Source: an uncultured Verrucomicrobiota bacterium
GTDB taxonomy: Bacteria > Verrucomicrobiota > Verrucomicrobiia > Limisphaerales > UBA1412
Reading direction: 5' to 3'
Length of the DNA: 64,000 nt
NCBI GenBank assembly: GCA_944389455.1
Contig: CALXMK010000015.1
Span: forward strand, 1-64,000
The notes under the pieces are model-generated. The model did not search any database and was not told the DNA's origin. It saw only the letters and a program-made list of their open reading frames with translations. Position 1 is the stretch's first letter; every line of letters begins with the position of its first letter. The translations under genes were made by a program, and so were the position numbers. Shown here one piece after another: positions 15,757 to 36,511 of this stretch.

Positions 15757-16521
15757 GTCCGGATTTTCCCCCTCTTTGACGGCGATTTGCTGTAGAGGGG
15801 GGAATTGTTTATTCCTATTCTTCGCTGAAGAATGGGAACATGAAATACGCACGAATTGTAAAAAATGTAAAACCCCCTGCTTTATGGAACAGGGGGGAAC
15901 AAAGACAGACAATCTTTGTTTAGAGTTATGATTTATTAGTAGTACGTATTGGATGGAGCCTTGATGCAAAAAGGCTCCATCTTTTCTTATTTATGATGCC
16001 TTAATAAGAAAATTCCTATTGATATCCTCCTGAATTTCAAATTTTACCTATTAAAATTAAGAAAAGGTTAAAAATTAATTCCTATTTGAAGAGTTTAAAC
16101 CGGAATGTAGTTCGTTGTAGATAAAACCTTAATCCTTAAAAAGGAGGAGTTATATAAATTACTTTTTTAAAGAACGCATGCTCGGATGCTTTTATATGTC
16201 GCCTTGATTAATATCCCATGAAAGGATATTTAATTTAAAATAACAAAAGTGATGAAAAATACAAGCCCTAGATGTGTTTTTTAATAAATAAATTGGATTT
16301 TTCGATGTTGAAAGAGGAGAAATTAGAAATCAGAAAATTAGAGGAATATTTCAATAGGTGTTTTTAATATTCTAATTTATGAACATAGATATAAAATCCT
16401 CCAAACCGATAAGTGGGATTGGAAATTCGGTATAAAAAATGCTATCCTTATTTGGGAAATGGGTGAAATTAGATAATAGATTTGTAATGAAGATGGAATC
16501 TGCTATATTAAATTGGCGTTT
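15757..16521. other. 765-base noncoding region with four hairpins, then AT-rich DNA
   Basis: The first 230 bases hold four well-formed hairpins: 15768-15802 (C5TCT/AGAG6), 15812-15838 (12-bp stem with one wobble), 15873-15896 (CCCCCTG/CAGGGGG) and 15952-15981. The rest (about 15990-16520) is AT-rich. I see no convincing gene there: AAGGAGGAG at 16141 precedes only a nine-codon frame. Confidence 0.6.
15952..15987 (+). terminator. Terminator closing the hairpin-rich region
   Basis: GATGGAGCC (15952-15960) pairs perfectly with GGCTCCATC (15973-15981), followed by TTTTCTT. It isolates the CotH cluster from upstream transcription. Confidence 0.75.
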
Positions 16522-19500
16522 ATGACAAGAGTTTGTTTTTTATTAATTGTAATTTTTTTGAGTGGTTGGATAAATAGGGAAGTTGTTGCTGAAACTAGAA
16601 CTCTTGTATCTTCAGGCTCAGAATGGCGTTATTTTAAAGGAACTCGGGAACCTGGAGTAGGCTTTAATTATTGGAAGAGCCTTGCTTATGATGACAGTAA
16701 CTGGGATTGTGGAGCGAGTCCTATTTATTACGGTGGAGGAATTAGCGATGGAACGCAGCTTGCGGATATGAAGGGAAATTATTCGAGTGTTTATTTTCGC
16801 AAGACTTTTTTTCTTGAGGATGGCAATTATACATCGCTTAAACTTAGAGTATTATGTGATGATGGGTGTATTGTTTGGCTTAATGGCAGAGAAATCCTTC
16901 GTTTTAATACTCCTGAAGGAGATTTAGCCTACGATGCGGTGGCTTCTGAGTTGATAACCTCTGCAAGTTGGAAGGAGTATGATATCAGTGATTTTATTTC
17001 TGTTCTTTGGGAGAATGAGAATAATATATTGGCTATTCATGGGTTAAATGTGAGTCTAGATAATAGCAGCGATTTTGTATTGGATATGGAGTTGGAGGCG
17101 GAGAGCATTAATGATTGGCAGCCCCCGAGAATAGCGGAGATTTTGCCTGAGGAGGGAACTTTTGTGGGGAATCCACCCAGTGTGAGCGTAATTTTCAATG
17201 AACCCGTAAAAGGAGTAAAATCGGATGATTTGTTCTGTAACGGAGTGAGTGCGAGAGAGGTGAGACAAATCAATGAGATGTGGTATCAGTTTGATTTTGA
17301 TGTGCAAGAAGAGGGAAGTTCACTTCAGTTTGAATGGAATCCTGAAGCAGAGATCTGTGATTTATCCGGTTTGGATAATCAGTTTATTCCGGATGTAAAT
17401 CCCTGGTGGTGTGAGGTTCATTCTGGGAAATGGAGAGGGAGTGTGATTATCAGTGAGATTATGACGGATAATGATTCTACTCTCAAGACATGGAACGGAA
17501 TGTATGAGGATTGGATCGAATTGTATAATCCGGGGATTGCAGCTGTTGATCTTAGTGGATGGTATTTGACTGATTCGAAGGGGGATTTAACTTGTTGGCA
17601 GTTTCCGGAGGGGACGGAACTGGGAGCGGGGGAGTGTATGATTGTTTTTTGTGATGGGACAGAGGGACAACCTTATATCAATCGGGAATATCATGCGAAT
17701 TTCAGTTTGAATAAGGAAGGAGAGTATTTGGCTTTGGTTTATAAGGATGGTGAGACTATAATTCATGAATTTGCCCCGGTCTATCCGGAGCTGAGGACCG
17801 ATTGTTCTTATGGAATAGGAGGTTTTTATTATTTGGATCCAAGCCCGGGACAGGTCAATGGGATAGGATTGTATGCACCGGTAGGAGAAATTCAGTTTAG
17901 TGAGCCTCGGGGCTATAAAGATAGCCCTTTTACGTTAACTTTAAGTACCGCAGATGAAGGAGCCAGAATTTATTATACGCTAGATGGAACTGTTCCCTCC
18001 AAGGAGAATGGACAGTTGTATAGGGAGCCACTCTATATTGATCGGATTACATGTCTGCGAGCTATTGCAATCAAAGAGGGGCATTTGGATTCAGAGGTAG
18101 TCACAAGAACATGGTTATTTTTGGAGGAGGTCTTAACTCAATCGGCATCGACTCCGGAGGGATGGCCGGCTTCTTATGCGGTGAATGGTCACAAAATGGA
18201 ATATGGAATGAATCCCGCTATTGTTAATTCCTCAAAATACAGCGAGGATATACGTAAGGGTTTTATGAGCATAGATACAATTTCCATGGTGACGGATTTA
18301 AAGAATTTATTCGATCCGACGATTGGTATTTATGTGAATCCTTCTGGCAGTGGAGAAGATTGGGAGAGACCAGCTTCTTTGGAATTAATAGATCCTGATG
18401 GGGGAGAGGAATTCCAGTTGGAATCTGGAATTCGTTTACGTGGTTCTGCCAGCCGTACGGCCAGTAATCCTAAGCATTCTTTTCGATTCTTTTTTCGTTC
18501 TCGTTACGGAGGAACATTGAAATTCCCGCTTTTTGGAGAAGAAGGTGCTCTTGAGTTTGATAAGGTGGATTTGAGAACTTCCCAAAATTACTCTTGGGCA
18601 TATGAGATTACTCCTTATGATACTTTTATTCGAGAGACTTTTGCGCGAGATTCTCAGCGGGATGTGGGAATGCCTTATACCCGGAGCCGTTATTATCATC
18701 TGTTCATCAACGGACAGTACTGGGGATTATATCAGACTCAGGAGCGCAGTGAGACCAGCTACGCAGAGACTTATTTAGGCGGAAATAAAGAGGATTGGGA
18801 TTTGCTCAAGACAGAGTCTTCTAATCGGAATACGGTTGTTTCAGAGGGAACGGATGAAGCCTCATATGAATTGCATCGGATTACCATTGAAGAAGGGTTT
18901 GCGGGCGATTATGCAACAAATTATTGGAGAATTAAGGGGTTGAATCCAGATGGAACTTATAATGCTAATTTACCTTGTTATTTGGATGAGAAGAATTTGC
19001 AGGAATACATGCTCAACGTCTATATGACGAGTGATACCGATTCTCCGATTTCGGTATGGGGAGGATTCGCAAATAATATTTTTGGACTTTATAACAGGGT
19101 TAATCCCAGTGGATTTAAATGGTTTAGACATGATGGTGAACATTGTCTCGGAGGACGTCGCTATCTGGGATACGGAGAGGCTTTTGACCTAATTGCCTGT
19201 GGCTGGGACTATAATGATTTTATTCGGTTTAATCCTATGCGTTTGCATCAGAGGCTAATGGATCATCCAGATTATAGAATGAATTTTATCGATCTCATTC
19301 AAAAGAGGGTTTTGAATGATGATGGGGAGTTTACAATAGAGGCTAATCGCGCTCGTTGGAAAAAACGGCAGGAGGAATTAGTGACCCCAATTGTAGCGGA
19401 ATCAGCTCGTTGGGGGCATGGTTATACTCGGGAGGATTGGTATAAAGAGTGTGATTATGTACTTAATACCTTTTTCACAGAACATCCTGCATACTTGATG

Positions 19501-21084
19501 ACACAATTAAAAGCTTATGGATGGTTTCCATCATTGGATGCGCCAGAGTTTTCTCGAACTGGCGGGGAGATGCCCTCTGCCGAGAATCCAGTGAGCCTTG
19601 GTGGAAGAGGAAAGATTTATTGTACAACAGATGGAAGTGATCCACGTTTAATTGGTGGAAAGTTAAATCCGGAAGCTATTCTTTTGGATATGGGGGATAC
19701 GGATGTGGTAACTTTGATTCCGAAAGGAGCTTCCTGGAAGTACTATGACGCGGGGCAAGCGCCCGAGCGGTTGAATGGAACCTCTTGGTATTTAGCTCGT
19801 TATGATGATTCCGATTGGCACAGTGGAATAGGGACTTTAGGTTTTGGAGGAAAAGAGAATACGACAGTTGCCAGCTTAGGCGCTGAGACAGGAGAGGCGG
19901 TCAATACTGTTTATTTCCGTTATAGTTTTGATTTAGGAGATCTCAGCCTTAGCTCTTTGAAATTGAATTTGAGATGTGATGACGGTGCAGTGGTTTATCT
20001 TAATGGGGGGATTATTCTTCGATTGAATATGCCGGATTCTTCGCAATATTCTACTCCTGCCGAATCTGAAGTAACAGGATTGAATGAAGATGAATATCAG
20101 ACTTTTGTTTTTTCTCCACAGAATTTAAATCAGAGAAATAATTTATTAGCAGTGGAAGTACACCAATCTTCTGAAAAAGGGGATCTTTATTTCGATCTTT
20201 CCTTGGAAGGAGAAGGAATGAATTCTTCTGGTGAAATTTCCTTTATAAATTTGCCCAATGAACAGCTAAGTAATCTGGAAGGGGTTTTATTAAGAGCCAG
20301 AGCATATAATGGGATAGAGTGGAGTGCAATTGCAGAGGCTGATTTTTCTCTTCCAGGAGATATTCATGATTTGAGGGTTACAGAGATGATGTATTCTCCT
20401 GTACTGACTCCAGAAGCGGAGAACCGAGGTTGGAACAGAGATGATTTAGCTTGGTTGGAGTTAAGAAATACAGGTGAAGGAGTATTGGATTTGAACGGGG
20501 TGAGATTCGGCTCCGGGATAGATTATACTTTTGGAGAAGTAATACTTCGAGCGGGTGAGCACCTTATTTTAGCAAAGAATCGGGAGGCGTTTCTCTTCGC
20601 GAATGGAAGTAGTTATGATTTAGGAGTGCAATTATTGGATGGATATTCCGGTAACTTGGCTAGAAAGGGAGAATTGATTTCGTTGTTGTCTGCTGATGGT
20701 GAATCGATTTTAAGTTATACCTATTCAAACCAATGGTATCCCGAGACAGATCAAGGAGGATATTCACTTGTTGTCGTAGATCCGAGATCAGAGGAAGCTC
20801 TCTGGAGTACGGAGCAGAATTGGCGTCCCAGCGCTAATTTGGGAGGAAGTCCTGGAATGATGGAATCGGTAATTGATTGCAAACTGGAGAATTTTGTCTT
20901 TTTACCAGATGGAAAGTTATCATTTGGGATAGGTGAGCTATCGGAGGTATTTGAGATTGAGGTTTCGAATGACTTAAAAAATTGGATTTTGTTTGAAAAT
21001 TGGAATGTGGAAAATGGACAAGTAATACTAGACTTGACCGGTACTGAAGGAGAAGATGCCCTTTTCTTTAGATTAAAATTATAA
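16522..21084 (+). CDS. Giant secreted CotH-kinase protein 1
   Basis: This is a 1520-residue exported protein (signal peptide ending near VVAE). Domains in order, approximate residues: galactose-binding-like sandwich with DDGCIVWLNG (20-193); Ig-like domain (197-303); lamin-tail domain (306-430); chitobiase/hexosaminidase C-terminal-type domain, YYTLDGTVPS (456-535); CotH kinase domain (556-995) with GIRLRGSASR, SFRFFF, TRSRYYHLFINGQYWG and HDGEH (870-874); second chitobiase-like segment CTTDGSDPR (1013-1053); second sandwich DDGAVVYLNG (1060-1230); second lamin-tail domain (1280-1450); and a C-terminal tail with SNDLKNW ending FFRLKL. CotH proteins are secretory-pathway-type or spore-coat kinases; activity here is inferred. 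ATG 16522 is preferred over the TTG at 16513. It is first of three tandem paralogues. Confidence 0.85.
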   Translation: MTRVCFLLIVIFLSGWINREVVAETRTLVSSGSEWRYFKGTREPGVGFNYWKSLAYDDSNWDCGASPIYYGGGISDGTQLADMKGNYSSVYFRKTFFLEDGNYTSLKLRVLCDDGCIVWLNGREILRFNTPEGDLAYDAVASELITSASWKEYDISDFISVLWENENNILAIHGLNVSLDNSSDFVLDMELEAESINDWQPPRIAEILPEEGTFVGNPPSVSVIFNEPVKGVKSDDLFCNGVSAREVRQINEMWYQFDFDVQEEGSSLQFEWNPEAEICDLSGLDNQFIPDVNPWWCEVHSGKWRGSVIISEIMTDNDSTLKTWNGMYEDWIELYNPGIAAVDLSGWYLTDSKGDLTCWQFPEGTELGAGECMIVFCDGTEGQPYINREYHANFSLNKEGEYLALVYKDGETIIHEFAPVYPELRTDCSYGIGGFYYLDPSPGQVNGIGLYAPVGEIQFSEPRGYKDSPFTLTLSTADEGARIYYTLDGTVPSKENGQLYREPLYIDRITCLRAIAIKEGHLDSEVVTRTWLFLEEVLTQSASTPEGWPASYAVNGHKMEYGMNPAIVNSSKYSEDIRKGFMSIDTISMVTDLKNLFDPTIGIYVNPSGSGEDWERPASLELIDPDGGEEFQLESGIRLRGSASRTASNPKHSFRFFFRSRYGGTLKFPLFGEEGALEFDKVDLRTSQNYSWAYEITPYDTFIRETFARDSQRDVGMPYTRSRYYHLFINGQYWGLYQTQERSETSYAETYLGGNKEDWDLLKTESSNRNTVVSEGTDEASYELHRITIEEGFAGDYATNYWRIKGLNPDGTYNANLPCYLDEKNLQEYMLNVYMTSDTDSPISVWGGFANNIFGLYNRVNPSGFKWFRHDGEHCLGGRRYLGYGEAFDLIACGWDYNDFIRFNPMRLHQRLMDHPDYRMNFIDLIQKRVLNDDGEFTIEANRARWKKRQEELVTPIVAESARWGHGYTREDWYKECDYVLNTFFTEHPAYLMTQLKAYGWFPSLDAPEFSRTGGEMPSAENPVSLGGRGKIYCTTDGSDPRLIGGKLNPEAILLDMGDTDVVTLIPKGASWKYYDAGQAPERLNGTSWYLARYDDSDWHSGIGTLGFGGKENTTVASLGAETGEAVNTVYFRYSFDLGDLSLSSLKLNLRCDDGAVVYLNGGIILRLNMPDSSQYSTPAESEVTGLNEDEYQTFVFSPQNLNQRNNLLAVEVHQSSEKGDLYFDLSLEGEGMNSSGEISFINLPNEQLSNLEGVLLRARAYNGIEWSAIAEADFSLPGDIHDLRVTEMMYSPVLTPEAENRGWNRDDLAWLELRNTGEGVLDLNGVRFGSGIDYTFGEVILRAGEHLILAKNREAFLFANGSSYDLGVQLLDGYSGNLARKGELISLLSADGESILSYTYSNQWYPETDQGGYSLVVVDPRSEEALWSTEQNWRPSANLGGSPGMMESVIDCKLENFVFLPDGKLSFGIGELSEVFEIEVSNDLKNWILFENWNVENGQVILDLTGTEGEDALFFRLKL

Positions 21085-21110
21085 ATTGAATTGATATAAT
21101 CCATTAATAT

Positions 21111-21118
21111 AGAGAGGA
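21111..21118 (+). promoter_or_regulatory. Ribosome binding site of CotH protein 2
   Basis: AGAGAGGA lies 8 bases before ATG 21127 in a 42-base intergenic gap, fixing the start and supporting co-transcription with the upstream paralogue. Confidence 0.7.
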
Positions 21119-21126
21119 ATAATAGA

Positions 21127-24100
21127 ATGAATTTATTAAAAATAATGGCAATGCTTTGCGGAGCATTTTATGCTTTCAGTGTATTAGCAGAGCCTGTCAT
21201 ATTGCTTGAAAGCGGAGTTTCATGGTCTTTATTCAAAGGAACCGAAGAGCCGAGTAATCCCTCGAATGCTTGGCGTGAGCGTGGATTTGATGATAGTGCT
21301 TGGTCAAGAAGCAATGCTCCGTTTTATTATGGTGAAGCAGCTGAATCGGGAACAGAGCTCACGGATATGCGTTATAATTACTCCAGCATTTATCTGAGAA
21401 AGAATTTTGAGCTTCAAAGCGGTTCATATGAGGATTTGCAGCTTAGACATTATTGTGATGATGGTTTTATTCTCTGGATTAACGGAACGGAGATCTATCG
21501 CTTTAATGTAGGAGAGGGAGAGAAGACTCATGATTCATTGTCGAGTGCGGTAGTTTCATCTCCTAGATGGGAGACCATTGATTTGAGTTCTTGGAGTCGA
21601 GTTTTAATCCCTGGTGCAACCAATTGTATAGCAATTCAAGCTTTTAATATTACATTGAGCAACAGCTCTGATTTTGCAATCGATATAGAATTGACAGCTA
21701 ATCAGACAGAGGATAGGACTCCTCCAACGGTCAGCATTGTTTCCCCAGCAGAAGGTACCTTGATTTCAAATCCCCCAAAAATTTCGGTTGTTTTTTCTGA
21801 GGGGGTTACCGGAGTAGACACTAATAGTATATGGGCTGATGGAATTCCGGCTATAGAGGTAACAGAGCTTTCTCCGGACCGGTACTTTTTCACTTTTGCA
21901 GAAGTGGAAGAGGATTGTGAAATTACTTTGTCATGGAATTCGGAGACAAAGATTTACGATCGTTCAGGTTATCAAAATGTATTTGTGCCTCCACAGAGTA
22001 GTTGGAGTTATTTTGTCAGCACGAGCATGGTAGATAGCGATGTTATTATTAATGAGTTCCTTACTTCCAATAATAAGGGATTAACAACTCAGTCAGGAAA
22101 ACATACTGATTGGATAGAACTTTATAATAAAGGAGAATCGGCAGTGGATATTGGGGGATGGTATTTAACGGATTCTGAGGATAATTTAACTAAATGGAAG
22201 GTGCCTGCAGGAACTATATTACCTCCAGATGGATATTTAGTTATTTTTTGTGATGATTCAGCTGAAAGCTCAATTGTCAATGGAGAGTATTTTGCCAATT
22301 TCAATTTAAGCAAAGCAGGTGAGTATTTGGCCCTAGTTTGTGCAGATGGGGTGACGATTGCGAGCCAGTTTGCACCTTCTTATCCTCCGCAGTATAGTGA
22401 TATTTCTTATGATGGAACTTGGTATTATAAGGAACCGACTCCCGGTCAGGCCAATGGGCAAGGTTATTTGGAGCCTGTGGGAGAGGTGATTTTTAGTGAG
22501 AGTCGTGGGTATAAGAGCGGACCATTTACACTGACATTGGATTGCGCTACACCGGAGGCCATTATCTATTATACTCTGGATGGAACGGTTCCGACTACTT
22601 CTTCTATTCGTTATACGGAGCCGTTGACTATTGATAAAATAACCTATATCCGTGCGTTGGCTGTGAAGGAGGGGCATATAGATTCTAAAGTGGTGACAAG
22701 AACTTGGCTTTTTGCGGAGGAGGCTTTGACCCAGAGTCCAAATACGCCAAATGGATGGCCTGATTCGTATCAGGTTAATAATCATCGTATGGTTTATGGT
22801 TTGAATGCTGATGTAGTAAATGATCCCTTTTATGCGGAAGGAGTCAGAGAGGGGTTGACAAATATACCTACAATTTCCATGGTAACAGATTTGGAAAATC
22901 TTTTTAATAGTTCTTCTGGGATTTATGTAAATCCGGGTGGAGACGGTATTCTTTGGGAGCGGCCAGCTTCTCTGGAGTTAATAGATCCGAACGGAGGAGA
23001 TGAATTTCAGATTGAAGCGGGAATCCGTATTCGCGGCGGATTCAGTCGCTCTTCGTCTAATCCGAAACATTCTTTCCGATTTTTTTTCCGAAATGAGTAT
23101 GGAGGAAAATTAAATTTTCCGCTTTTTGGAGAAGAGGGAGCAGATGTATTTGATAAAGTAGATTTGCGTACTTCGCAAAATTATGCCTGGTCATATCTGG
23201 CAGGTAATCCGCCAGAGTATAATACTTTTATTCGAGAAACTTTTGCGAGAGATTCTCAGAGGGATGTGGGGATGCCTTATACTCGAAGCCGTTATTATCA
23301 TCTTTTTATCAATGGACAGTACTGGGGGTTGTACCAGACCCAAGAGCGCAGTGAGGCTGATTTTGCGGAGACGTACTTAGGAGGTAATAGTGATGATTGG
23401 GATTGTATTAAGTCGGGAGCTGTAGCTTCAGACGGAAATGCAGAGGCGTTTACAGAATTGCATAGAATTGCTATTTCGGAAGGATTTGCCGGTAATTATG
23501 CCGATAATTATTATCGTATCAAGGGATTAAATCCGGATGGAACGCCTAATCCAGATTATCCACAGTATTTAGATGAGGATAACTTAATTCAATTTATACT
23601 GAATTATTATTATACGGCTGATCCAGATTCTCCTATTGGTTTAGGGGGAAGTGGTCCGAATAATCTTTATGGACTTTACAATAGAGTAAATCCAAGTGGT
23701 TTTACATGGTATCGGCATGATGCAGAGCATAGTATGGGGGCATATCGTAATTCTGGAATTAGTTATAATTATGATATGACTTCTCGTGGAGCAGGAGAGA
23801 CTTCCTTGGGGAATTTCACTCCGGTTCAATTGCATCAAAAGTTGATGGATCATCCTGATTATAAAATGCGCTTTATTGATTTATTTCAGAGTACCTATTT
23901 AAATGAAAATGGAGCGATGTCTTTAAGCAGCAATCTTTTCCGCTGGAATGTGCGGCAACAGGAGCTAGATAAGGCTATTTATACAGAGTCGGCTCGTTGG
24001 GCTCGAGATTGTGATATGCGTTATGAAGATTGGATTGCTGAGTGCAATTGGGTAAAGAATGTTTTTATTACTAATCGTCAGTTATGTTTGGAGGCCCATT

Positions 24101-27100
24101 TGAAAAATCGAGGATGGTACCCGTCAGAATCTATTTGTCCGCAGATTTTTCCGAATGGAGGTGAATTTGAGAGTCAAATTCAGGTGGAAATAGTAGGAAG
24201 TGGTGTTGTTTATTATACTACTGATGGCAGTGATCCCCGTTTGCCAGGAGGAGATGTGAATAGTTCTGTTCAGACTTTAGCTGAAGTTTATTCAGAAGGT
24301 AAGATTTTGTTGGAGAGAGGAAGTGAGTGGAATTATTATGATCTGGGAACAACTCCAGAGCTCCAGAATGGTCACCTCTGGTATCAGGTTGAATATCCTT
24401 CTATTGGCTGGAAGCAGGGAAACGCTCGGTTTGGTTTTGGTCCGGGAGAGGTTGCCACAGAGATCAACCAAGTAAAGTCTGGAACGACAGAGAATCTGAT
24501 TACAGCTTATTTTACAAAGAGATTTCAGGTGAATTCAGTTATAAGCATTCCGGAATTGATATTGCATTTAAATTGTGATGATGGTGCAGTTATTTATATC
24601 AATGGGCGGAGGGTGGTTAATCATAATATGCCTAATGATTATCTGACGGAGAATTTATATGCCGCCTCAGATGTTTCTGATGAGAATGAGAGTGTTTATG
24701 TAAGTTATCAATTGGATCCTTCGATTCTTGTTACAGGAGAAAATGTCATTGCTGTAGAAGTGCACCAAAGTGCTTCCGGAAATGAGGATTTGTATTTTGA
24801 TCTTGAATTGGAGTCTTCTTCAGGATATATCGGTTCAAAATCAGCCGGTATTATTAACGTATTCCCTGGAACGATAATTAAGGCGCGTTCGTTGAGCTCA
24901 AAAGGTGAGTGGAGTGCTTTGGCTGAGGCTGATTTTACAGTCTATGCTGAGCCTACGGATTTGAAGGTGACAGAGATGATGTATTCCGCTGAAGTACCTA
25001 TAGGAGCAGAAGATAAAGGTTGGTCTCGGGATGATTATGCTTGGATAGAACTTCAGAATATAGGTAATGGGGAATTGCGGTTGGATGGAATCAAGTTTGT
25101 GGAAGGTATTGAGTATATATTCCCGAAGATGATGCTTTCAGCAGGTGAATATGTAGTTTTAGTGAAGAATCTGGAAGCTTTTTCCACGTTGTATGACACT
25201 AATGGGTTGAATATTCTAAGTGGGTATTCAGGTAATTTATCTCGTAAAGGAGAGACAATTACATTGCAAACAGCCCAAGGAGAGCATATCTTAAGCTATA
25301 CCTATTCCAATAGCTGGTATCCACAGACCGATGAAGGGGGGTATTCACTGAAGGTAAATAATGTTTTGGCTGAGGAGTCTTTATGGAGTACTGCAGAGAA
25401 TTGGTCTCCGTCAGAAGTATCCGGAGGAAGTCCTGGCTGTGAAACTTTGAGCGAAATAGATCCACCTACGGTTAGTATTATTTCTCCAGGAGTGGATGGA
25501 ATGTTGACATTGTCGAAAGGGGAAGCGCTTTCGCTAAGTGTTGAGGTTGGAGGAAGTCGTCCGTTGAGCTGCCAATGGTACAAGGATGATGAACCAATTC
25601 CAGGGGCAACAGAAATCCATTATTTAGTCCAGCAATCTCAGGAGAGTGATTCCGGGGTCTATACAGTGAGTGTAAGTAATCGAGCAGGCAGTGTGCTGAG
25701 TCAACCGTTGAGTGTAACTGTAGAGTTTATTCTCAAAGTTGTTTCGAGCAGTATTAATGGTCCTTCCGAAGTAGAAGTTGGACGAAATGCTCTCTATACC
25801 TGCCAAGTGAATTTTAATGATGGAACATCCGATGCTGTTCAGCCGAGTTGGAATGTAAGTCCGGCTGAATGTGCTTCAATTACAGAAAGTGGGGAGCTGA
25901 CGGGGCTAGCAACAGGAAGTATTGTTCTGACAGCTCTCTATACGTTAGACGGCGTGACTAATTCGATCAGCAAGATGATTGAGATTGTGAGTTCAGAGTT
26001 GGCACCTCAAATTATTACTCAGCCTGAATCTGTTGCTCTTCGAGTAGGGCAATCGACAGCTTTTACAGTGGAAGCGATCGGGGCAAGTCCTCTGAGTTAC
26101 CAGTGGTATGTGAATAATGTGGCTATTACAAAAGGGGTGGAATCTACTTTTGTCATTACAAATATTACTCAGAGAAATGCAGGATATTATACAGTTGAAG
26201 TTCGAAATGACTATGGTTCTGTAGTGAGTGACAGTGTAGAACTTATAGTTCTAAACCAGCCAGAACCAGAATTGCTTCTTGATTATCAATTTAATGAAGG
26301 CGAAGGCAATACAACTGTGGATTCTGTTTCCCAGATTATAGCCAGTTTACCCAATACAGGGATTGCTGAAAATCCTTGGATTACAACTGAGAGTCCATCA
26401 GGGTTAGCAGGTGATCATGCAATAGAGTTAACCAATGGCCGTTGGTTGTTAGGAACTTTTGAGAATGAGCCTTTGAAGCGTACGGAACCTTTTACTTGGG
26501 AAGGCTGGGTCAATGTGGGAGAAAACGAGCAGGATTATCGAGATTTGATGCGTCTTGGAGGTATCTTTAAGGTGGGATTTCCCAAGAATAATAATCAATT
26601 TCAGGCGACATTTCTCGGGAAAATAGATATGACTTCTTCAATTGTTGTTCCGACAGGGAAATGGGTTCACTTGGCTTGTGCTTGGGAGCCTGATGTGGGA
26701 GTTCATTTTTATTTGAATGGGGTTTATGTGGAAACTTATTGGACTTCTGATTTCCCACTTTTTTATCAGAATTCGAATATAACAATTGGTGCTGATGACA
26801 ATGGAACATGTGTTTATGCAGGAATGATGGATCGTGTCAGAATTCATCAGGCTTTATTAAAAGAGGAAGATTTGGATTCAGATGCTGAGAATCCTAAATC
26901 ACTCCGCGAAGATACAATTTTTTGCTATGATTTTGAGCAAAATGAGATTCCTTTTCTTGATAAGGGAAGTGCTGGAATCTCTCTTTATGATGGATCTGGT
27001 GGAGGAAATATCACTAATAATGCGGTTAATTGGAGCTTTTCGACTCCAATATCGGATTATTCCTCGGAGGAGGGAACTGGAGATTATTCTCTGAGATTAA

Positions 27101-28548
27101 GTCATTCGGCTTCGACGAGTTATACTTCAGAGGTGATCTCTTTTCCTCCGGAAGAATTGAGTTATTCGAGTCAGTTAAATAAAAGCTTTTCTGTAGAGGC
27201 TTGGCTCAAAGGAGTTAAACCGCGCCAGGTTAAACAGGTGTTCTTGCAGATTCTGGGCAGCAGGAATGGGGATGTGCCCAGTGTTTCCTTTGCTGTCGGG
27301 GAAGATATGAAGGTAGTTATTACTACAATGGGAATTGTGGATTTCAAGACAGATCTTGTTTTCCCGGAAGATGATATTTGGCATCATTTAGCATGCGTTT
27401 ATGATGATATAAATCAAATGTTTTATGTTTATCTGGATGGGGCTCTGGGAAGTGAAGCTTCTTATACTCAAGGGGTTGATTTTACAACAAGAGATCAGGA
27501 ATTGAGAGCTGCCATTGGAAGCGAGTGTTCAGGTTATGCTCCTTTTGTAGGATATATTGATCGTCTCCGTTTTTATAAGGGAATATTGACACTCCAAGAT
27601 TTGGATTATAATGATTATTCGCCGGCATTGGAGTCTCCAGTTATTACCAGAGCCCCTTCTTCTCAAACAGTTAATGAAGGGCAGAGTGTAACACTCAGTG
27701 TAGAGGCTAGCGGAACTGAACCGCTAATTTATCAATGGTATAAAAATGGGGATCCGATAAATGGTGCAGTAACATCAGCTTATACTATTAAATCGGTAAA
27801 TCTGTTAGATGCAGGTAATTATACTGTTAAGATTATAAATGAGGCGGGTGAAACAGAGAGTGATTCGGTAATTCTTAGGGTGAATGCTGCGCAGGAACTT
27901 CAAGTTATTGTTGATTCTGTAAGCAGAGTTTATGGAGAGCCTAATCCTTCCTTTACTTATCAAATTTTAGATGAGAATGGAGTTGATATGACTGGTGTTT
28001 TATCGGGATCTCCTGAATTGACAACAACAGCTTTGCCAGGCAGTAATGTCGGTGAGTATCCTATTATGGTTTCGCAGGGAAGTTTGCCTGTAGAATATAA
28101 ATACCGGTTCCAAGATGGGGTCCTTACGATTCTTCGTGCTAAGCCACAATTGGTTTGGTCAACACCGGAAAGTGTTATCGAAGGAACTATTTTGGGTGAG
28201 GAACAGTTGAATGCTTCAGCTGATGTAGAGGGAGAATTTGAGTATACTCCTTCGGCTGGAACGGTGTTATCGGCTGGTGAATACACTTTGAGCGTACTTT
28301 TTACTCCGATCAATATAGAAAATTATGAAACAGTCCAAGCATCAGTTTTACTGAGGGTTTTGACTTTACAACCTCAAGCTCTCTTGAATTATCAGGTCAA
28401 CGGAAATCAATTAATCTTGATCTTTGAAGGAGTTTTAGAGGAAAGTGAAGATCTGACGAGTTGGACTCGGGTTGAAAATGCGGCTGAGCCTTATATTATA
28501 GATATGTCACAAGCGAAGATGAAATTTTATCGTGCAGTTGGTAATTAG
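21127..28548 (+). CDS. Giant secreted CotH-kinase protein 2 with Ig, LamG and MBG modules
   Basis: This 2473-residue paralogue of the previous gene has a signal peptide ending near VLAE. The front half repeats the same order: galactose-binding-like (20-195), Ig-like (200-300), lamin tail (302-425), chitobiase-like (452-530), CotH kinase (552-1000, with HDAEH), chitobiase-like (1010-1045), sandwich (1060-1230), lamin tail (1275-1438). The back half is new: Ig (1449-1533, CQWYKDDEPI), a bacterial Ig-like domain (1533-1625), Ig (1627-1710, QWYVNN), two LamG domains (1715-1925, 1928-2168), Ig (2172-2255), an MBG domain (2258-2337, YGEPNPSFTY), a related repeat (2340-2413) and the C-terminal tail with SEDLTSW ending FYRAVGN. 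The LamG pair plus Ig matches the repeat unit of the protein at 54194. The role is probably cell-surface or extracellular, binding glycans. Confidence 0.85.
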   Translation: MNLLKIMAMLCGAFYAFSVLAEPVILLESGVSWSLFKGTEEPSNPSNAWRERGFDDSAWSRSNAPFYYGEAAESGTELTDMRYNYSSIYLRKNFELQSGSYEDLQLRHYCDDGFILWINGTEIYRFNVGEGEKTHDSLSSAVVSSPRWETIDLSSWSRVLIPGATNCIAIQAFNITLSNSSDFAIDIELTANQTEDRTPPTVSIVSPAEGTLISNPPKISVVFSEGVTGVDTNSIWADGIPAIEVTELSPDRYFFTFAEVEEDCEITLSWNSETKIYDRSGYQNVFVPPQSSWSYFVSTSMVDSDVIINEFLTSNNKGLTTQSGKHTDWIELYNKGESAVDIGGWYLTDSEDNLTKWKVPAGTILPPDGYLVIFCDDSAESSIVNGEYFANFNLSKAGEYLALVCADGVTIASQFAPSYPPQYSDISYDGTWYYKEPTPGQANGQGYLEPVGEVIFSESRGYKSGPFTLTLDCATPEAIIYYTLDGTVPTTSSIRYTEPLTIDKITYIRALAVKEGHIDSKVVTRTWLFAEEALTQSPNTPNGWPDSYQVNNHRMVYGLNADVVNDPFYAEGVREGLTNIPTISMVTDLENLFNSSSGIYVNPGGDGILWERPASLELIDPNGGDEFQIEAGIRIRGGFSRSSSNPKHSFRFFFRNEYGGKLNFPLFGEEGADVFDKVDLRTSQNYAWSYLAGNPPEYNTFIRETFARDSQRDVGMPYTRSRYYHLFINGQYWGLYQTQERSEADFAETYLGGNSDDWDCIKSGAVASDGNAEAFTELHRIAISEGFAGNYADNYYRIKGLNPDGTPNPDYPQYLDEDNLIQFILNYYYTADPDSPIGLGGSGPNNLYGLYNRVNPSGFTWYRHDAEHSMGAYRNSGISYNYDMTSRGAGETSLGNFTPVQLHQKLMDHPDYKMRFIDLFQSTYLNENGAMSLSSNLFRWNVRQQELDKAIYTESARWARDCDMRYEDWIAECNWVKNVFITNRQLCLEAHLKNRGWYPSESICPQIFPNGGEFESQIQVEIVGSGVVYYTTDGSDPRLPGGDVNSSVQTLAEVYSEGKILLERGSEWNYYDLGTTPELQNGHLWYQVEYPSIGWKQGNARFGFGPGEVATEINQVKSGTTENLITAYFTKRFQVNSVISIPELILHLNCDDGAVIYINGRRVVNHNMPNDYLTENLYAASDVSDENESVYVSYQLDPSILVTGENVIAVEVHQSASGNEDLYFDLELESSSGYIGSKSAGIINVFPGTIIKARSLSSKGEWSALAEADFTVYAEPTDLKVTEMMYSAEVPIGAEDKGWSRDDYAWIELQNIGNGELRLDGIKFVEGIEYIFPKMMLSAGEYVVLVKNLEAFSTLYDTNGLNILSGYSGNLSRKGETITLQTAQGEHILSYTYSNSWYPQTDEGGYSLKVNNVLAEESLWSTAENWSPSEVSGGSPGCETLSEIDPPTVSIISPGVDGMLTLSKGEALSLSVEVGGSRPLSCQWYKDDEPIPGATEIHYLVQQSQESDSGVYTVSVSNRAGSVLSQPLSVTVEFILKVVSSSINGPSEVEVGRNALYTCQVNFNDGTSDAVQPSWNVSPAECASITESGELTGLATGSIVLTALYTLDGVTNSISKMIEIVSSELAPQIITQPESVALRVGQSTAFTVEAIGASPLSYQWYVNNVAITKGVESTFVITNITQRNAGYYTVEVRNDYGSVVSDSVELIVLNQPEPELLLDYQFNEGEGNTTVDSVSQIIASLPNTGIAENPWITTESPSGLAGDHAIELTNGRWLLGTFENEPLKRTEPFTWEGWVNVGENEQDYRDLMRLGGIFKVGFPKNNNQFQATFLGKIDMTSSIVVPTGKWVHLACAWEPDVGVHFYLNGVYVETYWTSDFPLFYQNSNITIGADDNGTCVYAGMMDRVRIHQALLKEEDLDSDAENPKSLREDTIFCYDFEQNEIPFLDKGSAGISLYDGSGGGNITNNAVNWSFSTPISDYSSEEGTGDYSLRLSHSASTSYTSEVISFPPEELSYSSQLNKSFSVEAWLKGVKPRQVKQVFLQILGSRNGDVPSVSFAVGEDMKVVITTMGIVDFKTDLVFPEDDIWHHLACVYDDINQMFYVYLDGALGSEASYTQGVDFTTRDQELRAAIGSECSGYAPFVGYIDRLRFYKGILTLQDLDYNDYSPALESPVITRAPSSQTVNEGQSVTLSVEASGTEPLIYQWYKNGDPINGAVTSAYTIKSVNLLDAGNYTVKIINEAGETESDSVILRVNAAQELQVIVDSVSRVYGEPNPSFTYQILDENGVDMTGVLSGSPELTTTALPGSNVGEYPIMVSQGSLPVEYKYRFQDGVLTILRAKPQLVWSTPESVIEGTILGEEQLNASADVEGEFEYTPSAGTVLSAGEYTLSVLFTPINIENYETVQASVLLRVLTLQPQALLNYQVNGNQLILIFEGVLEESEDLTSWTRVENAAEPYIIDMSQAKMKFYRAVGN

Positions 28549-28584
28549 AGGCTGGTATTGCATGAGGGTAAGTACATTGAAAAT

Positions 28585-31500
28585 ATGAGAGAATTGAAAG
28601 AAGTGAGAAAGTATATCTTGAAGGGAATGTTCTGGTGGTTTTGTTTAATAGTTATATGTACATTCCAGGGTATGTTTTGCAGGGCTGCTGAGTATGAAGG
28701 AGCAGAGTATATACAGATTACGGAATTGGTAGCAGATAATTATTCCGGACTTAAAACCAGAAAAGGAGAGTGTGAAGATTGGATTGAGCTTCATAATTCA
28801 GGGGATTCAGCGGTTGATTTAGGAGGATGGTATTTAAGTGACAGTGAGGATCTTCTCACTCGTTGGCAATTTCCTCAAGGAACTGTGATAGAGCCGGGAG
28901 GGTGGTTGATTGTTTTTTGTGACAGTTGGCAGGAGGAACAGCCTGTCGGAGAGCTCCATGCTAATTTTAGTTTGAGTAAAGAGGGAGAATATCTGGCATT
29001 GACGCTTCCGGATGGGGTGAGTATTGTGCAGCAATTTTACCCTTCATATCCACCTCAATATACTGATATTTCTTATGGGTTAGCAGAGATCGAAGAGAAA
29101 TATATTTTGGAAAAGGATGTATATTGGGAGATTCCAAATGAGATAGGAAGCACCGGACTCAAGAGCGGAGCCTTTCCTTTAGGAATTGTTTCACAGAGTT
29201 CCGGTTTCCTTGTGAAGTATTATGAGGTCTCACGTGAGATAGCTTCCGTTACTCAAGCTGTAGCCTGTGCAGGGAATCCGAATGTTTGGGCGGAAGGGTT
29301 TGAAATGATAGAGGGAAATTATTCCACGCTTAATTTTAGCGAAGGCGATTCGAGAGGACGTTTTGACAAGGATGAAATTTTCCCTGGGCATACTTCTTTT
29401 GAGGAGGATCGGAATTTGTTTGTCATTATTGCCGAGGCTCAGGTGCTAATTCCAGAAGCGGGAGAATGGACTTTTGGGGTTCGCAGTGATGATGGTTTCA
29501 GATTGACTCTTGTCAGTATGGATGGGAGTGAGAGGACTTTCACCAGTGAGTATTCATTTAATCGTTCCGAAGATGAGACTTTGGCTGTTTTTGATTTTCC
29601 AGAGGCAGGGTTCTATCAGCTGAAATTAGAGTATTATGATAGCTCCGGAGATGCTCTTTTAGAATTATATGCTGCTCAGGGAGCTCAAAGTGAGAGTTCT
29701 GAAGATTTTCGTCTGGTAGGGGATACGGCGGCAGGAGGACTTTCTGTTGGAGGTTTTTTGGGCGGAGAAATTAATACGGATCTTGCGGCGGATATGCTTG
29801 GTATCAATTCGCGCGTAGATGTTATTAAGTCTTTTACGCTGCATAGAATTCCTCAAAATGAGGAGGAGGTTAGCTGTCGTATTAGGTTTGCCGATGGTTT
29901 TGTTGCCAAGCTTAATGGGAAACAATTTGCTTCTTATAATGCGCCAGAGGTGTTGGAATGGAATAGCTGTGCCGAAGCAAAACGAAGCGCAGAAGTGGCT
30001 CAACAATGGATGGAGCTGGAAATTCCGCTAGGCTTTTTTGTCCTAGGTGAGAATGAATTGATAATAACCGGATTAAATGACCTCTCTGAAGATGAAGAGT
30101 TTATTTTAGATTTGGAGCTCTCCTTCAGTTATATGGAGAATCAGTGGAGATATTTCACAGAACCAACTCCTAATGCCGAAAATCAAGGAAATTCTTATCA
30201 GGAGCGCGTGGGTGCGGTTGTTTTCAGTGAGTCGGCAGGGTATAAGAATGAGCCATTTACTTTGGAACTAATTTCTCCATCAGAGGGAAGTGCTATTCAT
30301 TATACGCTTGATGGAACGGTGCCGACGGCGGAATCTCCTTTGTATACAGAGCCGTTGGAAATAAATCGGATTACCTGTATTCGCGCGATTGCTACTCGAG
30401 AAGGTTATTTAGATTCCGTAGTAACGACTAGGACTTGGCTTTTCCCTGAAGAGGTATTGAGTCAGTCTTCGGAAACTCCGGAAGGGTGGCCTGATTCTTA
30501 TGAGATTAACGATCATAAGATGGAGTATGGAATGAATGCGAGTTTAGTTCGCCAAGAGAGAGAAGAGATGCTTTTGGGTTTGCAATCAATTGATACTATT
30601 TCAATTGTAACGGATCTGAAGAATCTCTTTGATAAACAGACAGGTATCTATGTTAATCCCAGAGGAGATGGGACAGATTGGGAGCGTCCTGTTTCAATAG
30701 AGTTAATCAGTTCTACAGGAGAGGATGGATTTCAGATTGAAGGAGGATTGAGAATTCGCGGAGCCTATAGCCGAAGCAATTCAAATCCTAAACATTCATT
30801 TAGGCTTTTTTTCCGCGATCGGTACGGCGGAAAGTTGATTTATCCGCTTTTTGGGGCAGAGGGAGCGGAAGAGTTTGATAAGGTGGATTTGAGAACTTCT
30901 CAAAATTTCTCGTGGTCTTTTGAGAGTTCAGATTACAATACATTTATTCGAGAAACTTTTTCACGCGATTCACAACGAGATATGGGAGTGCCTTATACTC
31001 GGAGCCGTTATTATCATCTCTATATTAATGGGCAATATTGGGGATTGTATCAGACTCAAGAGCGGAGTGACGCTGATTATGCCCAGACTTATTTAGGGGG
31101 TGTAAGTGATGATTGGGATTGCATTAAGACCAATGGGGATGGTTATAGAACGGAGGCGTCTGATGGAACAATAGATGCTTTTTATGATTTTCATCATATT
31201 GCTGTTGAAGAGGGGTTCTCCGGTATTTATGCGACCAATTATTATTGGATTCGCGGTATGGATGAGGATGGAAATCGCATTGAGGGCTCTCCGGTTTATC
31301 TGGATGAGGATAATCTGATTAATTATATGCTGATTACTTATTTCACGCGTGATCCGGATTGTCCTGTGGCGGTTAACAGTCATGTAAATAATCTTTATGG
31401 ACTCTATAATCGTGTGGACCCCAGCGGCTTTAAGTGGTTTAAGCATGATGGAGAGCATTCAATGGCGGCCAATCGCTCATATCCGGTAACAACGGATTTG

Positions 31501-34500
31501 ACGGCACATGGTTGGCAACTGAATAGTCGGGATCAATTTAATCCGATGCGATTGCATCAGAAATTAATGGAGCATCCGGATTATAGAATGCGTTGGATTG
31601 ATGCTGTGCAGCGGGAGCTCATTGACGAGGGAGGAGCTCTCTCTCTGAGTAATAGTCTGGCACGTTGGAATCAGCGTCAAGAGGAGCTTGATTATGCTAT
31701 TCAATTGGAAGCAGCTCGCTGGGGCCATGGTAAGACAAAGCAAACATGGCTGACGGAGTGTGATTATGTAAAGAATTCTTTTATTGCATTGAGTGCGGAT
31801 TATCTTTTGCCGCAGTTGCGCAACCGTGGCTGGTTCCCTGAGATAAACGCTCCTGTTTTTACTGACTTGGTTCAGACGGAGGATCAGATTGATGTCACTG
31901 TGATTGGAGAAGGAGAGCTTTATTATACAATTGACGGCAGCGATCCACGGCTGCCAAGCGGGGAATTAAATCCCTTTGCCATCAGAATGATTCCGGATGC
32001 CTTAGCACAAGAGGTTTTAATTTCAAGAGGTTCGGAATGGTTCTATTATGATAGAGGTAATCCGGGCAGAGACAGTAACGAGCTTTATTATTTTCAAAAA
32101 GGATATAATTGTGAGGATTGGAGCAGAGGAGACGCTCGTTTAGGGTTTGGTCCCCGTCCGGTTCAGACCCAAGTCAATCGATATCATCCTCAGACGGGTG
32201 AACCTCTGGTAACAGTCTACTTTGCTCGCAGTTTTTATATTGAATCCTCTTTGCTGTTTTCCGGATTGGTTTTGAATCTCAATGCCGATGATGCAGCTGT
32301 AGTATTTATTAACGGCCGTCGCCTTATATTGCAGAATATCAGTACGGGACATAGTGATTCAACCTTTGCTCTTAGCGATATTTCCGGAGAAGATGAGAAT
32401 AAGTATCAATCTTATGAATTAGATGCGAGCTGCTTGGTAGATGGTGAAAATTGGATTACAGTGGAAGTTCATCAGAGCAGTGATCAGAGCGATGATCTTT
32501 ATTTCGATTTAGAGCTTTTGGCTGAGGCTGATGAAAATTCTTCTGGAATAAGAAGCCATCTGACAGTTGCTCCCGGAACAAACCTGAAAATCAGAGCTTG
32601 GAACGGAGTGGAATGGAGTGCCTTAGCAGAGAAAGATTTTACTGTTTATGGGGAATATTCGGATTTCAAGGTTACAGAAATGATGTACGCGGCAGCACTT
32701 CCGACCGGGGCTGAAGAACAAGGTTGGAGCCGTGATGATTATGCTTGGCTGGAGCTTCAGAATACAGGAGCAGGAATTCTGAATTTGGAAGGAATTCAAT
32801 TTACAAGCGGAATTGAATATGTCTTTCCGAAGTTTTATCTCTATCCGAGTGAATCGATTGTATTAGTAAAGAATATTGAGGCATTCTCTACTCTTTATAA
32901 TACGAATGGGATGAATATTTTAACTGGGTATTCAGGAAATTTGGCACGCAATGGGGAGGAAATTGTATTAAGTTCACCTCAGGGAGAGCCTCTCCTGAGT
33001 TATACGTATTCTAATAAATGGTATCCAGAGACGGATCGAGGCGGATATTCCTTGGTGGTTGTTGATACTTCTGCCGAGGAGCCGCTTTGGAGTACGGCAG
33101 AAAATTGGAAACTCAGCTCCAATTTACAAGGAAGTCCCTGTACTTCAGATGGTATTTCGGGGGCTATTGCACCTATCATCAAGGTGCAGCCTCGGAATAC
33201 CTGGGTGGTAGAAAGAGAACAGGTGCTTTTAAGTGTTACGGCGGGAGGAACTCCTCCACTGAGTTATCAATGGTATAAGAATGGTTCCTTAATAGAAGGT
33301 GCCAATGAAACTCAATTAGTGATTGAGTCAGCCGTGTTGAGTGATGCAGGAGAATATCATGTAGTTATCAGCAATGAGGTGGATAGTACTGAAAGTAAAA
33401 CAGCAGTTCTCAAAGTAGATTTGTTTGTACCGGATCCTCCTGTTATTTTACAGCAGCCGTCTTGGGCAATGGTTATGCCGGGAGAAAATGCATCTTTTTC
33501 AGTTGCCGTGACAGGTTCTAATCCTTTGATTTATCAATGGTATGTGAATGGGATTCCAATTGAGGGAGCGAATCGAAGTAGTTATTTTATTGATAACGTC
33601 ACTGTAGAGGATTCTTTGAATTTTTATTCGGTGACAGTAAGTAATGAGGCGGGGTCAGTGACTTCAGAGAGCGTTGGTTTAAATCTCATTAATGCGAATT
33701 TACTGCGCCAAGGTGATTTTATTATAGCAGTCGGAGCCAATAACAGTTCATATCCGGATAATGAGAATCCTCCGTTGGCTCTTGATTTGAATCCAGAGAC
33801 AAAATACCTTAATTTTGGTGGGATTGGAGCTGGTTTTATTGTGACTCCTTCAGGAGGTGTATCCATTGCCAAAGCGTTTCAGATAACAACGGCTAACGAT
33901 GCCGAGAAAAGAGATCCCGCTGCTTATGAGCTCTATGGTACAAATGATGAAATTCTCAGCAAGGAGAATAGTTCCGGTACGGATGAAGAGTGGACATGGA
34001 TTTCGTCTGGGAGTATTACTCTTCCAAATGAGCGTTTTACGGCAGGAGAGATTGTCGCTTTTGAGAACCAGCAGCCTTATCGTTCTTATAAGGTTATTTT
34101 CACCGAGCTGAAAGATGCGTCGGCGGGAATGTTCCAATTATCTGAGTTTCAGCTTTTGGGTTCTTTCCATCAGGAAGGGGCTCCTAATGTTTATGTCTCT
34201 TCTCAGTGGTCTGCTGTAGAAGGGGATACCGTTTATCTGAGATGTTATGCGAATGGTTCTATGCCTCTGATTTATCAGTGGTATAAAGACGGAGTTCAAA
34301 TAGAGAGGGCCATAGAGGATATATTGGTTTTGGAGAATGTCCTCCAAGGAGATTCTGGTATCTATACGGTTCGTGTGGAGAATGAGGATGGAGAGGTGGA
34401 GAGTGATCCGATTTATTTGGAAGTTGGTTCTCAGGAAGTAGAGCCTCCTCAATTAAGTTGGAGTATAGAAGAAGGTTTACTGATTCTATATTATGAGGGC

Positions 34501-34620
34501 ATTCTTTTAGAAAGTGAGGATCTTCTGCAATGGAATGCGGTAGAGGAAGCTGCTGGTTCGACGTATCAGATTGAGTTGAATCAAGGTGGTTCCAGATATT
34601 ATAGAGTGGTGCGTCCTTAG
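28585..34620 (+). CDS. Giant secreted CotH-kinase protein 3 with PA14-like and discoidin-like modules
   Basis: This third paralogue (about 2011 residues) has a membrane-inserting leader ending near FCRAA. It lacks the N-terminal sandwich of its neighbours and begins directly with a lamin-tail domain (42-160), then a PA14-like domain (206-370, GVRSDDGFRL), a sandwich (389-515), chitobiase-like (542-622), CotH kinase (642-1085, with HDGEH), chitobiase-like (1092-1135), sandwich (1145-1315) and lamin tail (1355-1520). Two Ig domains, an F5/8-discoidin-like domain (1708-1862), another Ig and the C-terminal tail (SEDLLQW, ending YYRVVRP) follow. ATG 28585 is chosen over the TTG at 28558; ATG 28627 is also possible. 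It begins 36 bases after the previous stop, so the three genes form an operon. Confidence 0.83.
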   Translation: MRELKEVRKYILKGMFWWFCLIVICTFQGMFCRAAEYEGAEYIQITELVADNYSGLKTRKGECEDWIELHNSGDSAVDLGGWYLSDSEDLLTRWQFPQGTVIEPGGWLIVFCDSWQEEQPVGELHANFSLSKEGEYLALTLPDGVSIVQQFYPSYPPQYTDISYGLAEIEEKYILEKDVYWEIPNEIGSTGLKSGAFPLGIVSQSSGFLVKYYEVSREIASVTQAVACAGNPNVWAEGFEMIEGNYSTLNFSEGDSRGRFDKDEIFPGHTSFEEDRNLFVIIAEAQVLIPEAGEWTFGVRSDDGFRLTLVSMDGSERTFTSEYSFNRSEDETLAVFDFPEAGFYQLKLEYYDSSGDALLELYAAQGAQSESSEDFRLVGDTAAGGLSVGGFLGGEINTDLAADMLGINSRVDVIKSFTLHRIPQNEEEVSCRIRFADGFVAKLNGKQFASYNAPEVLEWNSCAEAKRSAEVAQQWMELEIPLGFFVLGENELIITGLNDLSEDEEFILDLELSFSYMENQWRYFTEPTPNAENQGNSYQERVGAVVFSESAGYKNEPFTLELISPSEGSAIHYTLDGTVPTAESPLYTEPLEINRITCIRAIATREGYLDSVVTTRTWLFPEEVLSQSSETPEGWPDSYEINDHKMEYGMNASLVRQEREEMLLGLQSIDTISIVTDLKNLFDKQTGIYVNPRGDGTDWERPVSIELISSTGEDGFQIEGGLRIRGAYSRSNSNPKHSFRLFFRDRYGGKLIYPLFGAEGAEEFDKVDLRTSQNFSWSFESSDYNTFIRETFSRDSQRDMGVPYTRSRYYHLYINGQYWGLYQTQERSDADYAQTYLGGVSDDWDCIKTNGDGYRTEASDGTIDAFYDFHHIAVEEGFSGIYATNYYWIRGMDEDGNRIEGSPVYLDEDNLINYMLITYFTRDPDCPVAVNSHVNNLYGLYNRVDPSGFKWFKHDGEHSMAANRSYPVTTDLTAHGWQLNSRDQFNPMRLHQKLMEHPDYRMRWIDAVQRELIDEGGALSLSNSLARWNQRQEELDYAIQLEAARWGHGKTKQTWLTECDYVKNSFIALSADYLLPQLRNRGWFPEINAPVFTDLVQTEDQIDVTVIGEGELYYTIDGSDPRLPSGELNPFAIRMIPDALAQEVLISRGSEWFYYDRGNPGRDSNELYYFQKGYNCEDWSRGDARLGFGPRPVQTQVNRYHPQTGEPLVTVYFARSFYIESSLLFSGLVLNLNADDAAVVFINGRRLILQNISTGHSDSTFALSDISGEDENKYQSYELDASCLVDGENWITVEVHQSSDQSDDLYFDLELLAEADENSSGIRSHLTVAPGTNLKIRAWNGVEWSALAEKDFTVYGEYSDFKVTEMMYAAALPTGAEEQGWSRDDYAWLELQNTGAGILNLEGIQFTSGIEYVFPKFYLYPSESIVLVKNIEAFSTLYNTNGMNILTGYSGNLARNGEEIVLSSPQGEPLLSYTYSNKWYPETDRGGYSLVVVDTSAEEPLWSTAENWKLSSNLQGSPCTSDGISGAIAPIIKVQPRNTWVVEREQVLLSVTAGGTPPLSYQWYKNGSLIEGANETQLVIESAVLSDAGEYHVVISNEVDSTESKTAVLKVDLFVPDPPVILQQPSWAMVMPGENASFSVAVTGSNPLIYQWYVNGIPIEGANRSSYFIDNVTVEDSLNFYSVTVSNEAGSVTSESVGLNLINANLLRQGDFIIAVGANNSSYPDNENPPLALDLNPETKYLNFGGIGAGFIVTPSGGVSIAKAFQITTANDAEKRDPAAYELYGTNDEILSKENSSGTDEEWTWISSGSITLPNERFTAGEIVAFENQQPYRSYKVIFTELKDASAGMFQLSEFQLLGSFHQEGAPNVYVSSQWSAVEGDTVYLRCYANGSMPLIYQWYKDGVQIERAIEDILVLENVLQGDSGIYTVRVENEDGEVESDPIYLEVGSQEVEPPQLSWSIEEGLLILYYEGILLESEDLLQWNAVEEAAGSTYQIELNQGGSRYYRVVRP

Positions 34621-34641
34621 GAGAAGATGAGAGATTAGTTG

Positions 34642-35440: not shown

Positions 35441-36511
35441 GTGGATAGAAATTTAAATAATCCAGATATTTTACGGCAGGATCATTATCTCTATCGAATG
35501 CCAGCAGAGTGGGAACCTCATGTAGGGGTATGGTTTTCATGGCCTCGGCCCGAAGGGATTAGTTTTCCAGATAAATATGAGCCTATTCCGCATGTGTATG
35601 CACGCTTGGTTCGAGAACTTCTTTTTTCGGAAGAGGTTCATATCAATGTTTGGAATAAGGAGATGGAGGAGAGTGTATATGGTTTTTTGAAGGAGAGAGA
35701 AGCGGTTTCATCTCGGCTCTTTTTCCATCATTTTCCTGCTTATGAACCCTGGTGTAGAGATCATGGTCCGATTTTTGTGGTGAGAGAGCAGAAAGGAGAA
35801 CGCTTTCGTGCTGTGATTGATTGGAATTACAATGCCTGGGGAGGGAAGTATCCGCCCTATGATTTGGATGATGAGATTCCTGTACATGTAGCAGAATATC
35901 GAAACCTGCCTCTTTTCCAACCCGGAATGATTTTGGAGGGAGGATCGATTGATGTAAATGGACAAGGAACGCTGTTGACAACCAGTTCTTGTCTTCTCAA
36001 TCCCAATCGTAATCCCAATTTAACCAGAGAGCAGATTGAGGAAAAGCTCTGCTCTTATTTAGGTGTCAGGAATATTCTCTGGCTTGAGGAGGGGATCGTA
36101 GGAGATGATACAGATGGGCATATAGATGATATTACGCGCTTTGTTTCACCGAATACTGTCGTCACAGCGGTAGAGACTAATCCGGAGGATGAGAATTATC
36201 AGCCGCTTCAGAGAAATTTGGAGTTGCTAAAGGAGATGAGGGATCAGGAAGGAAATCCATTGAACGTGGTTGAGATACCGATGCCTGAGCCTGTTTATTA
36301 TGATGGACAGCGATTGCCAGCTTCTTATGCCAATTTTTATATTGCCAATCACGCTGTAATTGTCCCGACTTATCGTTGCTCTCGTGATGTCGAAGTGCTG
36401 GGGATTCTCAAAGAGCTGTTTCCGGATCGAGAGGTTGTCGGGATAGATAGTACGGATTTGATTTGGGGATTGGGATCGTTCCATTGTATATCCCAGCAGG
36501 AGCCGCTTTAG
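35441..36511 (+). CDS. Agmatine deiminase family protein (guanidino-group-modifying enzyme)
   Basis: This 356-residue protein fits the agmatine deiminase/peptidyl-arginine deiminase family. Visible motifs are PHVGVWFSWP near the N-terminus, WCRDHGPIFVV, WNYNAWGGKYPPYD, LEGGSIDVNGQGTLLTT, DDTDGHIDDITRF, and the C-terminal nucleophile in FHCISQQEP (Cys349). Free-standing enzymes of this size convert agmatine to N-carbamoylputrescine. The cysteine is preceded by LGSF, where many members have GGGN, so substrate could differ. GTG 35441 is the start: the ATG at 35439 is out of frame and stops after five codons. AGAAAGG lies about 7 bases upstream of the GTG. No carbamoylputrescine amidase gene is adjacent. 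Confidence 0.85.
   Translation: MDRNLNNPDILRQDHYLYRMPAEWEPHVGVWFSWPRPEGISFPDKYEPIPHVYARLVRELLFSEEVHINVWNKEMEESVYGFLKEREAVSSRLFFHHFPAYEPWCRDHGPIFVVREQKGERFRAVIDWNYNAWGGKYPPYDLDDEIPVHVAEYRNLPLFQPGMILEGGSIDVNGQGTLLTTSSCLLNPNRNPNLTREQIEEKLCSYLGVRNILWLEEGIVGDDTDGHIDDITRFVSPNTVVTAVETNPEDENYQPLQRNLELLKEMRDQEGNPLNVVEIPMPEPVYYDGQRLPASYANFYIANHAVIVPTYRCSRDVEVLGILKELFPDREVVGIDSTDLIWGLGSFHCISQQEPL

Follow-up and report, generated by a model that had tools for sequence, protein, structure and literature searches.

Three giant genes, each encoding a protein with a CotH kinase domain, lie side by side in the genome of a rumen-type Verrucomicrobiota bacterium, raising the question of whether they encode working kinases and, if so, what those kinases would phosphorylate. 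We analysed them within the whole 64,000-nucleotide stretch of DNA that contains them (hereafter the window). The ORF listing and translations bear out the earlier note's description of three adjacent genes on the same strand, with the lengths given below and gaps of 42 bases between CotH1 and CotH2 and 36 bases between CotH2 and CotH3.

15951..15982, + strand: terminator-like hairpin between the GFO/IDH gene and CotH1 (consensus match only)
16522..21084, + strand: CotH1, 1520 aa, ATG start at 16522
21127..28548, + strand: CotH2, 2473 aa, ATG start at 21127
28585..34620, + strand: CotH3, 2011 aa, ATG start at 28585

The array is preceded by genes for FtsK, a metallophosphoesterase and a GFO/IDH oxidoreductase, and followed by genes for RNase HII and a member of the Porphyromonas-type peptidyl-arginine deiminase family. 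The upstream hairpin suggests that the array is a transcription unit of its own and, together with the short gaps and an RBS-like AGAGAGGAA ahead of CotH2, makes a CotH1-CotH2-CotH3 operon plausible; the RNase HII gene, which starts at 34639, 18 bases past CotH3, may be co-transcribed with it. The deiminase-family gene (window 35441-36511; PF04371, E 2e-121) may encode an agmatine deiminase. The metallophosphoesterase (window 13395-14354) has a twin-arginine-like N-terminus and was not found in a syntenic sister contig (L077), in which FtsK adjoins GFO/IDH.

Domain architecture and the kinase core

17437..17760, + strand: first lamin-tail domain (LTD) of CotH1, PF00932
17908..18105, + strand: CHB_HEX_C_1/Fn3_assoc of CotH1, PF13290 and PF13287
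18430..19494, + strand: CotH kinase domain of CotH1 (PF08757, 5jd9 profile match, Foldseek), with K651, E741, D840, N852 and D871 (HDGEH)
23023..24117, + strand: CotH kinase domain of CotH2 (Pfam), with K647, E740, D834, N846 and D865 (HDAEH)
30748..31776, + strand: CotH kinase domain of CotH3 (Pfam), with K736, E826, D925, N936 and D955 (HDGEH)

CotH1 is laid out as sandwich, LTD, CHB_HEX_C_1, CotH, sandwich and LTD; in CotH2 the second LTD is followed by further Ig, LamG and MBG domains (Pfam); and CotH3 reads LTD, PA14, CHB_HEX_C_1, CotH, sandwich, LTD and Ig domains. The earlier note had the three proteins sharing their modules in the same order, which holds for the LTD (two stretches in each protein), CHB_HEX_C_1/Fn3_assoc, CotH and second LTD, all above the curated Pfam cut-offs, but not for the N-terminal sandwich, found in CotH1 and CotH2 and absent from CotH3, which starts with its lamin-tail domain and carries a PA14 insertion. 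NCBIfam gave no name to any of the three. Their N-termini, judged by eye, resemble Sec signal peptides, so that CotH1-3 look like exported proteins.

PF08757 matches CotH1, CotH2 and CotH3 with E-values of 7e-19, 4e-18 and 4e-20 (66-73 bits in all three, against a curated cut-off of 23.8). A phmmer search of the PDB with CotH1 as the sole query returned no match; a 27-sequence profile retrieved Bacillus cereus CotH (5jd9/5jda) at E=4.5e-45. Structure was predicted for the CotH1 core among the three, and the AlphaFold model, built on the 27-sequence alignment, has a pLDDT of 91.6 and a pTM of 0.90. Foldseek with this model places 5jd9 first (E 8.8e-13), followed by 5jda (E 1.0e-12), with TM scores of 0.62/0.77 and all remaining matches above E 0.001, corroborating the earlier assignment of the domain; identity between Bacillus CotH and the model in the structural alignment is about 14%. 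The Lys, Glu, catalytic Asp, Asn and metal Asp of Bacillus CotH align with those of CotH1-3, and within the modelled segment K99, E189, D288 and D319 are invariant in the 27-sequence alignment, with N300 conserved at 90% or more. The earlier note would have regarded cores without nucleotide- and metal-binding residues as structural only; at the sequence level, all five residues are present in each of the three proteins. CotH1, CotH2 and CotH3 thus each have a true CotH kinase fold whose nucleotide- and metal-binding residues are intact.

The roles of the Lys, Glu and Asn are those we assume from the kinase fold in general, and those of the two Asp residues are taken from PMC7821199 and the alignment. 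Either substitution, D228Q or D251A, inactivates B. subtilis CotH (PMC7821199), and the aligned catalytic and metal Asp of B. cereus CotH (5jd9) lie 23 residues apart, as do D228 and D251, a correspondence drawn from spacing and from alignment to B. cereus, the B. subtilis sequence being outside the alignment.

An HDxE subfamily in tandem arrays

In a tree of 75 rows, built by a quick method with SH-aLRT as its support measure, CotH1-3 fall within a 40-row clade on a long branch (1.75), which has members from Verrucomicrobiota and Planctomycetota. The signature of this clade is HDxE, as against WDxD in Bacillus and most others: the 40 clade rows have Glu as second acid of the metal motif, and the remaining 36 rows, B. 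cereus CotH among them, have Asp or Asn. Asp at this position of WDxD is a typical, not a known defining, feature, and CotH1-3 have Glu there. All five core residues are retained in nearly all 40 clade rows and, judged from the alignment, HDxE is the mark of a subfamily in which the core is not lost. The loop between the catalytic Asp and the Asn is also longer in CotH1-3 than in Bacillus CotH, and, given this loop and the Glu for Asp, the chemistry may differ. Members of the same clade (for example L080-L085) share the core and HDxE with CotH1-3, and several have a lamin-tail domain ahead of the core; they differ in that the three-gene array with these flanks is seen only in species close to that of the window. 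In a separate CotH clade (L033, L035, L036, L037), all five rows have Gly for the metal Asp (for example PSGxDQ), so that their chemistry is probably different or lost.

A special status for the array is not supported by the relatives. This 2.6-Mb genome has nine CotH matches, CotH occurs in 34 of 40 relatives across the order at up to 44 per genome, and tandem arrays recur in the genus (three neighbouring genes in G003:C214, two in G000:C23); genes this numerous in relatives are ordinary. The array itself is old, and two congeners share it at least in part: one contig of the sister species G005 has the order FtsK-GFO-CotH1-CotH2 and a second the junction of the CotH2 end with CotH3, and G003 has a CotH2-like/CotH3 junction. 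Each of the three proteins groups one to one with its sister-species orthologues (SH-aLRT 97-100). Between the window and G005 the CotH cores are 77-79% identical (77% for the CotH1 orthologue in L059/L077) and most other stretches 40-60%; the core is conserved far above the rest of the proteins.

Two further observations concern variation among CotH paralogues. L041 (G003:C7), in a congener, resembles CotH2 up to and including the kinase core (64%) and ends like the short CotH1, with a frame break or contig error between, which suggests module shuffling among tandem paralogues. In L004 (G000:C23:34978-35679) the catalytic Asp is replaced by Glu and the Asn by Asp, and the core Lys is missing; L004 lies directly upstream of L001 (G000:C23:41303-42343), a CotH that keeps the Lys, Glu and both Asp and has Ser for Asn; L070 and L038 were noted alongside this arrangement. 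The pair is reminiscent of the Fam20A pseudokinase and Fam20C kinase.

Substrate context and a C-terminal module

Bacillus CotH shares the fold of CotH1-3 but is a spore-coat protein of about 360 aa with CotB/CotG neighbours, whereas CotH1-3 are giant, modular and apparently exported. Neither Spo0A_C nor Dockerin_1 was found in the genome (93% complete), in agreement with the earlier note's view that spore and cellulosome genes are absent, and no Ser/Lys/Arg-rich CotB/CotG-like repeat protein is present among the window genes; the top Ser/Lys/Arg-rich frames there were rejected as alternative frames of other genes. Since Spo0A_C and Dockerin_1 are missing, spore-coat and cellulosome substrates do not fit, and a substrate of another class is a reasonable expectation from the gene content; the surface glycoproteins proposed in the earlier note are a hypothetical example. 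Cellulosomal CotH proteins of anaerobic fungi and bacteria likewise are exported, in plant-degrading gut communities, and whether they are structural parts or kinases is unsettled (PMC12484212, PMC10978972); they differ in the dockerin, which is found neither on CotH1-3 nor elsewhere in this genome. The genes beside the array encode no obvious substrate, and a literature search on CotH function in Verrucomicrobiota gave nothing relevant. A link between CotH and VTC (polyphosphate polymerase) was rejected: the sole VTC of the genome is far from the array, on contig C7, where the CotH gene about 46 kb away is another one.

Candidates may instead come from a C-terminal module of about 60 aa, located by profile:

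28369..28545, + strand: C-terminal module of CotH2
34438..34617, + strand: C-terminal module of CotH3
58964-59140: C-terminal module of the LamG giant (54194-59149)

The module (consensus LILxFTGxLxESxDLxxW...FYR) ends CotH2 and CotH3, and CotH1 has a diverged form of it. Its profile has 24-27 matches in the genome, depending on threshold, and 17-54 in each congener genome; with one exception, the module ends no more than 14 residues before the stop in the retrieved frames. It is carried by about 25 exported proteins of this genome, among them further CotH proteins, the LamG giant, a subtilase and BspA-type LRR_5 proteins (loci L087-L104, L063-L065). Pfam and NCBIfam hold no named family that matches it, and its predicted model, a small beta-sandwich, has no significant match among PDB folds. 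We infer that it is a candidate sorting or anchoring signal; if it does sort, the kinases and the carrier proteins would meet at the same place, giving a testable list of substrates. Exported carriers are candidate CotH substrates because they share their tail with CotH2 and CotH3.

Possible functions of CotH1-3

On balance, we favour CotH1-3 as exported, surface-directed kinases of the CotH family that phosphorylate surface proteins. This reading is based on Pfam and fold membership, the core residues, the conservation of the core and the synteny of the array in sister species; within it we infer export, activity, substrate, site of action and ATP supply. After Sec export, the core would bind ATP with Mg or Mn and transfer phosphate to Ser/Thr residues of further exported proteins at the surface. 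Its positioning, on the envelope or on partners, would fall to the lamin-tail, chitobiase-C, Ig, LamG and PA14 modules. Candidate substrates would be the BspA-type LRR, LamG and Ig proteins with the same C-terminal module, which probably reach the same place as the kinases, and the three paralogues may share one chemistry yet differ in where they are placed or which substrates they choose. Support for a kinase role comes from the core. Against our favoured reading stand the scarcity of ATP outside the cytoplasm, the Glu in the metal motif, the longer loop, the lack of a nearby CotB/CotG-like protein and the diverged tail of CotH1; the best-studied bacterial CotH, that of the B. subtilis spore coat, acts in the mother-cell cytoplasm. 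The distantly related, atypical Fam20 kinases (Fam20C; the Fam20A/Fam20C pair) do act on secreted proteins (PMC7821199, PMC4421793), but in the eukaryotic secretory pathway with luminal ATP, and belong to a different sequence family.

The related secretory kinases Fam20B and POMK phosphorylate sugars, and CotH1-3 could likewise be active on glycans, either of surface glycoproteins or of host or plant polysaccharide, guided by their carbohydrate-binding-like modules. The CHB_HEX_C_1, LamG and PA14 modules around the core (Pfam) and an active-site loop unlike that of Bacillus CotH are consistent with such a role, which we nevertheless consider unlikely: these modules are common, generic surface modules, and the bacterial CotH that has been characterised acts as a protein kinase (PMC7821199). 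It is similarly improbable that CotH1-3 are giant adhesins or scaffolds whose kinase core serves as a structural or ligand-binding module and no longer transfers phosphate. Some mucoralean CotH proteins serve as surface ligands (PMC9973265), the Ig, LamG and LTD architecture is adhesin-like, an ATP source is not obvious, and the same genome holds a CotH paralogue with lost catalytic residues (L004); yet CotH1-3 retain the five core residues, as do nearly all rows of the 40-row clade, and the core is the best conserved part of the proteins.

Returning to phosphorylation of surface proteins, its fullest form is a speculation to which we give rather little credence: that gut Verrucomicrobiota have an extracellular phosphorylation system, in which exported CotH kinases of a distinct HDxE subfamily, from conserved tandem arrays, would be directed by a C-terminal module not described before to the same surface as the BspA-type LRR and LamG proteins and phosphorylate them with ATP from outside the cytoplasm. 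Little attention has been paid to phosphorylation that bacteria carry out beyond the cytoplasm. Verrucomicrobiota have many exported CotH domains, for which the literature searched reports no substrate. The array offers three conserved, apparently intact kinase cores together with a defined set of surface proteins that may be sorted with them.
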